This document shows positions 15,870-26,219 of a stretch of DNA of 64,000 nucleotides, one piece after another. How positions within the stretch are numbered: position 1 is the stretch's first letter; each line of letters begins with the position of its first letter. Source of the DNA: Alphaproteobacteria bacterium. GTDB taxonomy: Bacteria; Pseudomonadota; Alphaproteobacteria; UBA828. The notes beneath the pieces are model-generated. The model was not told the DNA's origin and did not search any database. It saw only the letters and a program-made list of their open reading frames with translations. The DNA lies in contig JAJDXK010000033.1 of the NCBI GenBank assembly GCA_022823305.1, positions 1-64,000 on the forward strand, given 5' to 3'. Made by a program: the position numbers and the translations under genes.

Positions 15870-18800
15870 CTATCGCTTCGGGGGGTCGACCCAGAAGCGC
15901 CGGCGCTCGAAGGGATAGCCCGGCAGCGCGATCCGGCGCCGGCTCTCGCCCGCGAACAGGCCGGCGAAGGACAGCGGCAGGCCCGCCTCGTAGACCCCCG
16001 CGACCGCCTGCAGGAACCCGCCGTCACCGTCGCAACCCGTCGCGTCGCCGGAAGGCGGACGCAGGGAGGTCAGCACCAGGGGCTCGCCGGCCTCCCCGGC
16101 TGCCGCATCGGTCTCCGCCGCCGGAGCCGGCCAGGCGGACGCGATCGCCGGGCCCAGCGACGCGCCCGGGCCGATCTCCACGATCACCTCCACACCTCGC
16201 TCCGCCAGCGTCGCGACGCACGGCTCGTGCGCCGGCGGCTCCTGCGCCTGGCGCAGCCAGTGGTCCGCGTCCAGCACCTCGTCCGGCCCGACCACACGGC
16301 CGCTCAGGCTGCCGATCATCGCAAGCGACGGCGGCCGGAAATCGACACCCTCCGGCACCGCCGCCGCATCGCCCGCGACGGCGCGCGACGTCGCAAGGCG
16401 GAGCCCGTCCTCGAGGCCGAGGATGCCTGCGGCCTGGGCCGCGGCCAGTTCGCCCGTGTCGTAGCCCAGGACCACGCCCGGCCGAATGCCCACGCTCGCC
16501 CAGAGAGCGGTGAGCGCGCATTGCAGCGCATAGAGGGCCGGTCCCGCCCACGCCGGATCGTCGAGGCTGCCGGCCGCGCCGTCCGCTCCGAACATCGTGT
16601 CCAGCAGCGGGGCGCCGCTCTCTGCGCGCAGCACCGCATCGCAGCGATCGAGCACCGCGCGGGCCGCCGGCTCGCTGCGGTAGAGGGCCGCGCCCATGCC
16701 GGGCCAGTGCCCGCCCGAGCCGCTGTAGGCGAAGGCCACCGTCGTCGCCTCGCGCGGCGCCGGCCGCTCGCCCGCCTCGGCGAGCGTGCGCAGTCCCTCC
16801 CGCAGGGAGTCGCCGTCGCCGAACACCAGGGCGGCGCGGTGGCGGAAGTGGCTGCGGCCCGTGCCGGCGGTCCACGCCATGTCCGGGAGAAGCGCCGTCC
16901 CGTTCCCGTCCGCATCCTCCGCCGCCGGCGCGTCCTCCCGCGCGTCGAGCCAGCCGAGAAAGCGCCGGGCCAGCGCCCGCAGCGCCGTCTCCGACTTGCC
17001 GGAGAGCGGCAGCAGCCGCGTCCCGCGCGGGCCGCTCTCCGCCCCGGCGAGCGGCAGGTCGGCGAGCGATTCAGGGAGGAACGCGGCGACCGGCTGCGGC
17101 GCGCCTTCGGGCGCGAGCCATCCGGCCGGCGCCTCGTCGGCGCCCCTGGGCGCGCCGTACCCCTCGACGATGACGTGCGCGTTCGCGCCCGAGATGCTGA
17201 ACGCGCTGACGCCGGCGCGGGCCGGCCGCCCGCTTCCGTTGGGCCATCCCGTCGCGTCCGCCGTCACCCGGACCGGCAGGCGATCCCACTCCACGTGCGG
17301 GCTCGGCGTCTCGAAGTGCAGGTGCTTCGGGATCACGCCGCTCTGCATGGAGAGCACGACCTTGATGAGGCCCGCGATCCCGGCCGCCGCCTCCAGGTGG
17401 CCGATGTTGGTCTTGACCGAGCCCATCAGCAGCGGGCGGTCCGCCTCCCGCCCCCTGCCATAGACCGACGCCGCGGCGTTCACCTCGATGGGGTCGCCCA
17501 GCGAGGACCCGGTGCCGTGCGCCTCCAGGTAGTCCACCTCCGCAGGCGCGATGCCCGCCCGCGACAGGGCGTCCTCGATCACCTGCTCCTGCGCCGGGCC
17601 GTTGGGAACCGTCAGGCCCGCACTCGCGCCGTTGTGGTTGACGGCCGAGCCCCGCACCACGCCCCAGATGCGGTCGCCCTCCGCCTCCGCCTCGGCGAGC
17701 CGCTTGAGCACGACGAAGCCGCAGCCCTCGCCCCGGACATGGCCGTCGGCGGCCGCGTCGAAGGTCCGGCACACGCCGCTCCGCGACAGCAGGCCGAGCT
17801 CGGACATGAACCTCGTGACCGTGGGCGAGAGGAGCGCGCTGACCCCGCCCGCGAGCGCCAGGTCGATCTCGCCCCGCTGCAGCGCGGCAACCCCCTCGTG
17901 CACCGTCGCCAGCGACGACGCGCAGGTCATGTCCAGCGGCATCGCCGGCCCCATGAGGCCGAGGGTGAAGGCGATGCGCCCGGCGGCGACGCTCCCCGTG
18001 GTGCCGAGGTAGCCGACATCGGCCCCGCTCGCCGCCATCAGGTCGCGGTACTCGCTGCCGCTGAGGCCGGCATAGACTCCAGTGCGGCTGCCGCGCAGCC
18101 GGTCGGGGTCGATCCCGGCGTCCTCGAGCGCCTGCCAGCTCGTCTCCAGCAGCATGCGCTGCTGCGGGTCCATGGCCCGCGCCTCGATCGGCCTGATGCC
18201 GAAGAAGCGCGCATCGAAGGCGTCGAGGTCGTGCACGAAGCCGCCGCGCCGGAACACCGGATTCTCGGCTTCGGGATCGCCGACATCCGCGAGCCAGGAG
18301 TCGAAGTCGGGGCGCCCGTCGCTCACCCCCTCGCCGCCCGCCGCGAGCTGCGCCCAGAAGCTCGCGAGGTCCGGCGCGCCGGGCAGCCGGCAGGCCATGC
18401 CGACGATGGCGATGCGCTCGTCCGCAGGCGCCGCCGCGGGCCCGGCGCCCGGTGCGCTCCGTTCGGGAGCCGCAGCCGGCGCGCCGCCGCCCAGCGCATC
18501 GCCCAGCTCGCCCGCCAGATGGCCGGCGAGCGCGGCCGCGTCGGGGTAGTCGAACACCACCGTGTTGGAGGCGACGTACTCGCCCGCGAAGGCGCGGTTC
18601 AGGCGGTTCCTCAGCTCCACCGCCATCAGCGAGTCCATGCCGAGGTCGAAGAAGCCGACCGTCGGCGCAGGGGTCGACGGCAGCCGGAGAACGGCCTGCA
18701 GCTCGCCCTGCACGAAGGAGAGCAGCAGCGCCTCCCGCTCGGCGGGCGGCGCGACCCGCAGGCGGGACATCAGGTCCTCCGGCGAGTCGGAGTCCTCGTC

Positions 18801-24800: not shown

Positions 24801-26219
24801 TGGCAGGCCGGAGGCGCCTTCGCCGGCGCCGTCGGCCGTCGCATAGCCCTCCAGCAACACGTGGGCGTTGGTTCCCGACCAGCCGAAGCCGCTCACGCCT
24901 GCACGCGGCGGGCGGCCGGGAACGCGCGGCCACGCGGTGGGCGTCGCAGTGACCTGCAGCGGCAGGTTGTCCCAGTCCATCTCCGGGTTGGGCGTGCTGA
25001 AGTTGAGGTGCTTGGGGATCTCCCCCCGGTTGATGGCCAGCACAGCCTTGATGATGCCGGCGACGCCGGCCGCCGCCTCCAGATGGCCGATGTTGGTCTT
25101 GACCGAGCCGATCAGCAGCGGGTGGTCGGCATCGCGTCCCCTGCCGTAGGCCGTTCCGGTCGCCTGCACCTCGATGGGATCGCCGACCTCGGTGCCGGTG
25201 CCGTGCGCCTCGACGTAGTCGACCCCGGACGGCGGGATGCCGGCGGCGCGCAGCGCCGCCTCGATCACCTTCTCCTGCGCCGGCCCGCTCGGCACGGTCA
25301 GCCCCGGGCTGGCGCCGTCCTGGTTGAGCGCCGAGCCGCGGATCACGCCCCAGATGCGGTCGCCCTCGGCCTCCGCCTCGGCGAGCCGCTTCAGCACCAC
25401 GATGCCGCAGCCTTCGCCGCGCACGTAGCCGTTGGCGGCGGCGTCGAAGGTGGCGCAGCGCCCGTCCGGCGAGAGCATCCCGGCGTTGGCGCGCATCTCC
25501 AGCAGCCGGCCGGAGAGGATGGTGTGGACGCCGCCGGCGAGCGCGAGGTCCGCCTCGCCCCGCTGCAGGCTCGAGGCCGCCTGGTGGATCGCCACCAGCG
25601 AGGACGAGCAGGCGGTATCCAGCGCCAGTGCCGGCCCTTCCAGCCCGAGCGCGAAGGCGACCCGCCCGATGGCGGTGTTGAAGGAGGTGCCGGTGACGGC
25701 GTAGAGGTTGGTCGCGGGCTCTGCGATGTCGCTGACGTCGAGGATCAGGCCCCGGTACTCGTTGTTGCTGATGCCGGCGTAGACGCCGGTGCGGCTGCCC
25801 TTGAGGCGATCCGGGTCCATGCCCGCGTCCTCGAGCGCGCGCCAGCAGGTCTCCAGCATCAGCCGCTGCTGCGGGTCCAGCATCTGCGCCTCCACCGGCG
25901 AGATGCGGAAGAAGGCGGCATCGAAGTGCTCGATATCGTCCAGGTAGGCGCCGAAGCGGCAGGCCCGCACCTGCCCCGCAGCATCGGGGAAGAGCAATCC
26001 CACGCGCCCGACGCCGGAGCCGGGCTCGCCTTCCGTCACGGCGCTCCTGCCCTCGTCCAGCAGGCGCCAGAAGGCGGCGAGATCGTTCGCGCCGGGAAAG
26101 CGGCAGGCCATGCCGACGATCGCGATCGCTGCGTCGTCGCTGGAAGCGAGCGGCCCTTGCCCTTCCGCTTCGCTCGACGCCTCTCCACGGGGATCGTGGG
26201 AGCTGTCTCGTTCCATCAT
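15870..26219 (-). CDS. Type I highly reducing polyketide synthase, KS-AT-DH-MT-psiKR-ER-KR-ACP-KS-psiAT
   Basis: A 3449-residue multidomain synthase. Order: KS1 31-458 (Cys204, His339, His379); AT1 580-945 (GHSLGE, Ser676; specificity motif AYHS); DH 957-1250 (His990 in HxxxGxxxxP, Asp1166); C-methyltransferase about 1270-1680 ([11 protein letters not shown]); structural psiKR 1680-1880; ER 1905-2208 (HAGAGGVG); KR 2219-2470 (TGGLGGIG; Lys2330, Ser2354, His2367 where Tyr is expected, Asn2371); ACP 2490-2575 ([12 protein letters not shown], Ser2530); KS2 2601-3022 (Cys2766, His2901, His2941); degenerate AT 3158-3445. The second AT has GYDTGE instead of GHSxGE and lacks about 86 residues. Everything up to the first ACP matches a fungal-type iterative HR-PKS; the product is probably a reduced, possibly methylated chain. 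No thioesterase, phosphopantetheinyl transferase or second carrier is fused. ATG 26219 is followed by a second ATG. Confidence 0.95.

Follow-up and report, generated by a model that had tools for sequence, protein, structure and literature searches.

The 64,000-nucleotide stretch of DNA analyzed here (the window; contig JAJDXK010000033.1 of the Alphaproteobacteria bacterium assembly GCA_022823305.1) encodes, on its minus strand at positions 15870..26219, a polyketide synthase (PKS) of 3449 amino acids that ends in a second ketosynthase (KS2) with its catalytic residues in place, attached to an acyltransferase remnant (psiAT) that has lost its own. This KS2-psiAT ending is shared by a whole family of synthases in several phyla, probably the sup PKSs of sponge symbionts, and is an old duplicate of the first ketosynthase-acyltransferase pair (KS1-AT1). 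The reading that we favor, and hold to be rather probable if far from assured, is that of a SupA-type enzyme in which KS2 would take the finished chain from the internal acyl carrier protein (ACP) to a discrete ACP, with or without a last condensation, for release.

A reducing module followed by KS2-psiAT

The PKS is specified by one open reading frame (ORF) with an ATG start and a GC content at third codon positions (GC3) of 0.94; the plus-strand ORF of 3399 residues that overlaps it was taken to be an antisense shadow. Its domain order is KS1-AT1-dehydratase (DH)-methyltransferase (MT)-pseudo-ketoreductase (psiKR)-enoylreductase (ER)-ketoreductase (KR)-ACP-KS2-psiAT, as deduced from the ORF, Pfam matches, and motifs. 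A preliminary description of this DNA had given the same order in a single protein; its coordinates and residues were right, and the strand was missing from it, as was an unusual His in the KR (see below). Pfam detected two KS and two AT domains (best AT match, AT1 at residues 585-891) plus DH (959-1260), MT (1494-1595), ER (approximately 1904-2207), KR (2221-2397), and ACP (2503-2568), while the psiKR region of the window PKS (approximately 1690-1900) had no Pfam match and was assigned from its position. KS1-AT1 spans residues 31-891 (23547..26129, minus strand) and carries Cys204, Ser676, and His783, which by Pfam and alignment are conserved in all 33 full-length sup PKSs, counting that of the window. 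The segment from DH to the internal ACP, with Ser2530 in the latter, occupies residues 959-2572 (18504..23345, minus strand; Pfam and motifs). Module 1 is thus equipped like a fully reducing module with C-methylation: the residues tested in KS, AT, DH, KR, and ACP are there, apart from a Tyr-to-His change in the KR (see below), as are the cofactor motifs of the MT and the ER.

KS2 lies at approximately residues 2600-3024 (17148..18422, minus strand). Alignment to KS1 and motif inspection confirmed that Cys2766, His2901, and His2941 are all kept, as first described, and added Lys2936 to the list. The psiAT and C-terminal tail (approximately residues 3171-3449; 15873..16709, minus strand), examined by alignment and in a structural model, bear out the earlier view that this AT cannot work: the GHSLG motif of AT1 (Ser676) has become GYDTG at residue 3252, with Asp replacing the nucleophilic Ser, and the stretch that contains His783 in AT1 is deleted. 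Beyond it, Pfam and the translation revealed only a post-AT tail and then the stop codon, with no carrier, reductase, or thioesterase domain, so the statement that nothing functional follows also stands. An AlphaFold model of KS2-psiAT (predicted template modeling score [pTM], 0.81; mean predicted local distance difference test [pLDDT], 77) matched KS-AT didomains in Foldseek and VIA-align comparisons, a generic likeness in which loading and extension modules tie.

The ending recurs across genomes and phyla

The preliminary description implied that this ending is singular. The search for similar proteins that it proposed showed instead that the architecture belongs to a whole family. Within the genus, KS2-psiAT was found in six of eight genomes, counting the window genome (G000). 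Whole sup PKS proteins of 3454 to 3465 amino acids are present in G002, G005, and G006. G001 and G007 contain pieces, and in G001 the PKS frame is broken at an earlier point. What G003 (67% complete) shows of the PKS is its N-terminal end alone, where a contig ends, and no PKS match was found in G004 (62% complete). In 13 genomes from other genera of the same family (G008 to G020), no KS2-psiAT was detected, the hits resembling stand-alone KSs with approximately 30% identity. Among 385 genomes of the class, 8 from four families matched the whole model at more than 1100 bits and 11 more matched as other PKSs, at 506 to 571 bits.

A scan of Genome Taxonomy Database (GTDB) contigs, which covered the 80 top-scoring loci out of 579 relatives, identified the terminal KS2 in 48 of these 80, and hence in at least that many loci overall. 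According to the titles of the metagenome-assembled genome records, which can be wrong, these come from at least eight phyla: Latescibacterota, Acidobacteriota, Gemmatimonadota, Chloroflexota, Nitrospirota, Nitrospinota, Rhodothermota, and Pseudomonadota. In 45 loci the terminal KS2-psiAT lies in one open frame, with the stop 780 to 960 amino acids after the KS2 start. The terminal frame is interrupted or short in a few loci, and in a Spirochaetaceae locus (L097) the sup PKS is present in broken frames. At least two sup-sized PKS frames occur in each of the genomes of L046 (G410) and L061 (G413).

KS2 is kept, its AT is lost

Residues were counted in 54 terminal modules, after K2_L035, K2_L075, and K2_L091 had been dropped as KS1 units or unrelated PKSs. 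The KS2 Cys, Lys, second His (His2), and gate Phe are present in 54/54 and the first His (His1) in 51/54, the exceptions being L050 and L065 (Asn) and L079 (Gln), all of which still keep the ACP and the hydrolase described below. For comparison, 45 KS1-AT1 units (rows L072, L075, L080, and L104 and units of 850 amino acids or less having been dropped) keep all AT and KS residues, bar one gapped row and one gate Tyr in the KS.

The opposite applies to the terminal AT, which was scored in the 48 modules readable to the end (L033, L056, L058, L068, L083, and L085 were set aside). Separately, L059 was omitted from A2 because it has a stop codon. Neither the Ser nor the His is retained in any of the 48 modules (0/48 each), the Ser place being taken by Gly in 39, Asp in 8, and Ala in 1; L083, whose row is unreadable to the end, has Ser in the nucleophile column. 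From the Ser position onward, terminal modules have 29 to 73 residues, versus 134 to 137 in module 1. The part missing from at least 80% of the 48 modules corresponds to AT1 residues 710-787 (78 residues), which include His783 and, as we assume from AT architecture, the small ferredoxin-like subdomain. Of the columns invariant in module 1, 86/143 in the KS persist in at least 94% of the 48 modules, compared with 14/70 in the AT, or 14/57 when only columns outside the deletion are considered.

Pairwise ratios of nonsynonymous to synonymous substitution rates (dN/dS; NG86 method) tell the two domains apart as well. In the closest pair, G002-G005, the values are 0.122 for KS1, 0.143 for KS2, and 0.31 for psiAT, and the KS2 value for G001-G007 is 0.13. 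KS2 is held by selection, not always as tightly as KS1 (see below), and psiAT is relaxed but not free.

The phylogeny of KS1 against KS2, also proposed at the outset, was built with 27 KS1, 27 KS2, and 20 outgroup rows from 27 loci, with support given by the Shimodaira-Hasegawa-like approximate likelihood ratio test (SH-aLRT) only. KS2 sequences form one clade (SH-aLRT, 100), KS1 sequences another (84), and both together are separated from the outgroup (100). KS2-psiAT is therefore an old duplicate of KS1-AT1, arising from one duplication that preceded the spread across phyla. A long identical run had raised the suspicion of gene conversion between KS1 and KS2, which found no support at the clade level, as all 27 KS2s group together.

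Relationship to the sup family and other synthases

Sup PKSs have reportedly been known since 2007. In the excerpts of PMC4245539 and PMC3908369 that we consulted, they are small, monomodular, single-gene type I PKSs proposed to make mid-chain or methyl-branched fatty acids. The product is called only a proposal in the relevant part of PMC4245539; the corresponding part of PMC9864124 speaks of sup involvement in methyl-branched fatty acids. In PCR surveys, sup genes far outnumber other PKS genes in sponges of high microbial abundance, again according to excerpts from PMC4245539. The window PKS is, to judge from its sequence, probably of this SupA type. Like sup, it combines C-methylation with a reductive set in a single gene, with the domain motifs present in 33/33 full-length sup PKSs. 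The sup KS primer motifs DPQQ and HGTG, which PMC4245539 gives as unlike those of swf, have counterparts in the DPQQR and EAHGTGT of the window KS1. A table in PMC3908369 lists a permease, SupE, in the sup cluster, and a Xan_ur_permease adjoins the PKS in the window, a likeness in kind only. In the tree, made without the deposited SupA sequences, KS1 and KS2 form their own clade against the 20 other PKSs.

Sup as described in these published excerpts is monomodular, whereas the terminal KS-psiAT is a feature of the window PKS and its relatives. No C-terminal KS-psiAT on Sup is described in the portions consulted of the Creative Commons-licensed literature, a scope outside which the founding sup papers (Fieseler 2007, Hochmuth 2010, and Siegl 2011) lie.

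The other sponge-symbiont PKS, SwfA, differs: in the published excerpts it has the order KS-AT-DH-ER-KR-ACP, 2349 to 2361 amino acids, and an HATGT motif, with neither the MT nor the terminal KS of the window PKS. Assignment of the latter to swf (HATGT, no DPQQ, IAFH, GHSSGE, followed by SwfB) was rejected, as it has HGTGT and DPQQ. A PKS with those SwfA marks (HATGT, no DPQQ, IAFH, and GHSSGE; 2374 amino acids) is encoded elsewhere in the window genome (G000:C14, L119, 7885-17547), followed by an 843-amino-acid reductase-sulfotransferase as in SwfB. SwfA-like PKSs also occur in G002 (L122) and, split over two frames, in G006 (L121). In this literature (PMC4245539, PMC3908369, PMC9864124), sup is reported together with swf in one single-cell genome. 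The SwfA/SwfB pair fits a sponge-symbiont host, the names of the bins have a sponge-derived look, and the window's host is probably an alphaproteobacterial, sponge-associated symbiont.

The best NCBIfam match of the window PKS is NF045894 (PKS_plus_SDR, a type I PKS model; 2100 bits, cut-off 1740), a 1515-position domain model that the protein matches in five stretches and that is silent on the terminal KS-psiAT. Fungal highly reducing iterative PKSs of the LovB type and MAS-like PKSs have the order KS-AT-DH-MT-psiKR-ER-KR-ACP and end in the ACP. They share the module 1 order with the window PKS, which adds KS2-psiAT after the ACP. KS2 itself may be compared with the KS0 of trans-AT PKSs, a KS that may only hand on the chain; KS2 for its part has a loose HGTGT motif. 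The consulted part of PMC6855096 describes one KS0 as lacking the His. Equating KS2 with a nonelongating KS0 was nevertheless rejected, the HGTG His being kept in the window and in 51/54 modules, as was equating it with a KSQ loading module (Cys to Gln), the Cys being present in 54/54. A trans-AT PKS, with modules lacking an integrated AT, was discarded because AT1 keeps Ser and His in 33/33 and the only dead AT is the terminal one. Neither is this a PfaC-type KS-chain-length factor pair, since the domain following KS2 is an Acyl_transf_1 remnant and not a chain-length-factor KS homologue.

A discrete ACP and other recurrent neighbors

Convergent with the PKS, at 15398..15628 on the plus strand, lies a discrete ACP (PF00550, 44.5 bits) with its attachment Ser in GVSSVD. 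On the other side, at 26348..28174 (plus strand), is the Pfam-identified permease (Xan_ur_permease) that corresponds in kind to SupE; its C terminus has a weak, sub-cut-off match to the histidine-kinase-like ATPase domain HATPase_c_2. In the DNA analyzed around 56 sup loci, BLASTP clusters of ORFs gave a discrete ACP in 41, an alpha/beta hydrolase in 39, a Xan_ur permease in 26, an Sfp-type phosphopantetheinyl transferase (PPTase) in 20, and none of these in nine; the domain identity was examined with Pfam for two of the hydrolases, two of the discrete ACPs, one permease, and three PPTases. The attachment Ser of the discrete ACP is kept in 20/20 aligned rows, one of which is the internal ACP.

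A profile of the discrete ACP, built with G002, G006, and the window sequence and without G001, G005, or G007, was searched in the window genome and 20 relatives. It scored 123 to 131 bits in all six genus genomes with KS2 and at most 51 bits otherwise. In a further 12 genomes searched it reached at least 77 bits in nine, i.e., in 8 of 11 without an ACP at the locus plus that of L059, which has one.

Peculiarities of the window locus

In the other members of the genus the alpha/beta hydrolase sits between the PKS and the ACP. The sup hydrolase is present in six of these genomes (G001, G002, G003, G005, G006, and G007), with 78 to 100% identity to the G006 query. The window genome (93.5% complete) yielded in the same search only a paralogue with 37% identity, on G000:C97 (L118/L120).

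The window PKS is also peculiar at its 3' end. Its KS2 groups with the KS2s of acidobacterial and nitrospiral loci and not with those of its genus (SH-aLRT, 99), and identity to the G006 protein falls from 0.84 in KR to 0.62 in the first half of KS2, the second half standing at 0.76. From these comparisons it looks as if the KS2-psiAT segment (15873-18434) derived from one sup lineage and the remainder of the protein from another, which would make the PKS a mosaic. Loss of the hydrolase and acquisition of a foreign KS2 could both have resulted from one recombination at the 3' end.

Possible role of KS2

In the mechanism that we propose, the internal ACP would carry the methyl-branched acyl chain built by module 1, and KS2 would accept this chain onto Cys2766 and hand it to the discrete ACP. 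With KS2 kept while its AT is dead, and a discrete ACP recurring beside it, the simplest explanation is that synthesis closes with a transfer to that ACP or a condensation on it, and to this extent the step put forward in the preliminary description has gained support; the reaction itself continues to be conjectural. Whatever function is under selection in KS2 depends on Cys, Lys, and His2 and can dispense with His1, a residue of decarboxylation. Acyl transfer would be the function common to all KS2s, because the three lineages without His1 still keep both ACP and hydrolase; transfer is also easier than extension to reconcile with a dead cis AT. For the remaining 51 terminal modules, including that of the window, a final unreduced condensation with a malonyl unit carried by the discrete ACP may also occur, and AT1 or a housekeeping transacylase could load this ACP. 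Release from the discrete ACP would fall to the cluster alpha/beta hydrolase in most relatives and to another enzyme in the window, and psiAT might be retained only as a scaffold or docking surface.

Several observations weigh against this mechanism. The KS2 HGTGT motif is loose, reading HGAGS in 27/54 modules, so KS2 may condense weakly or not at all. Constraint on KS2 is looser than on KS1 when more distant pairs are compared, with dN/dS values of 0.33 versus 0.19 (psiAT, 0.60) for the window genome and G006 and of 0.25 versus 0.17 (psiAT, 0.36) for G006 and G002. The KR of module 1 has His2367 in the usual Tyr position, as do 32 of the 33 full-length sup PKSs with their KR Ser, Asn, and Lys kept (21 motif matches from other PKS loci have Tyr in 17 and His in 4), which makes full reduction probable rather than shown. 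As to the partner, the best ACP matches in G406, G409, and G407 reach only 70, 64, and 56 bits and could be ordinary carriers. In a mirror-tree comparison over 27 loci, ACP distances were correlated to a similar extent with those of all PKS domains (r, 0.31 to 0.52), with no preference for KS2. The window ACP is 83% like that of G006 while the window KS2 groups with other lineages, so that KS2 and ACP do not travel strictly together. The window also has no cluster hydrolase, only 241 bases (15629-15869) separating the PKS and ACP stops.

Two alternatives are unlikely to a similar degree. In one, KS2 would act at the start of synthesis like a displaced loading module, selecting or decarboxylating with the discrete ACP a starter for KS1. 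The proximity of that ACP is consistent with such a role, and so are the top rows of the VIA-align comparison, KSQ-AT loading didomains (GfsA, Z 48.0; PikA, 47.8), which are however tied with extension modules such as Lsd14 (47.8). KSQ loading domains have Gln in place of Cys, and KS2, in contrast, keeps its Cys throughout; moreover, it sits after the internal ACP, is a copy of the extending KS1, and has a dead AT that would leave the starter without a cis loader. In the other, equally improbable, KS2-psiAT would be a noncatalytic end cap or dimer scaffold. The dead AT with most of its invariant positions gone, the loose HGTGT, the loss of His1 in 3/54 modules, and the weaker constraint in distant pairs all point that way, but a scaffold need not keep Cys, Lys, and His2 invariant in 54/54 modules, and the AT in the same chain has lost its catalytic residues; in the closest pair, moreover, KS2 dN/dS is close to that of KS1.

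Somewhat less credible still is that KS2 itself releases the chain by condensing it with a small nucleophile or a second chain, the discrete ACP serving some other purpose; the PKS has no thioesterase and the window no cluster hydrolase, but a hydrolase near the PKS in 39/56 sup loci offers a simpler release. Finally, an artifact, be it the frameshift hiding a normal second module or the decayed KS2 under no purifying selection contemplated in the preliminary description, or a misassembly, can be dismissed almost entirely: despite the frame break in G001 and the few broken or short terminal frames, the same ending stands in one open frame in 45 loci across genomes, KS2 forms one clade, and its dN/dS is 0.13 to 0.33 (0.14 versus 0.12 for KS1 in the closest pair).

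Transfer by KS2 to the discrete ACP, if extended to the sup family as a whole, leads to a more tentative picture, which we think possible but would not yet bet on: an iterative highly reducing synthase duplicated its own KS-AT pair, the AT copy was killed, and the KS copy became a dedicated off-loading gate that lets nothing but the finished chain, whether or not lengthened by an unreduced C2 unit, pass to a discrete ACP for release, the arrangement then spreading, probably horizontally, across phyla of sponge symbionts. The opposite fates of the KS and the AT of one duplicate provide a built-in control for the step from KS2 Cys2766 through the discrete ACP to the hydrolase. Should KS2 prove to be an exit gate, this would help to account for the timing of termination in an iterative synthase.

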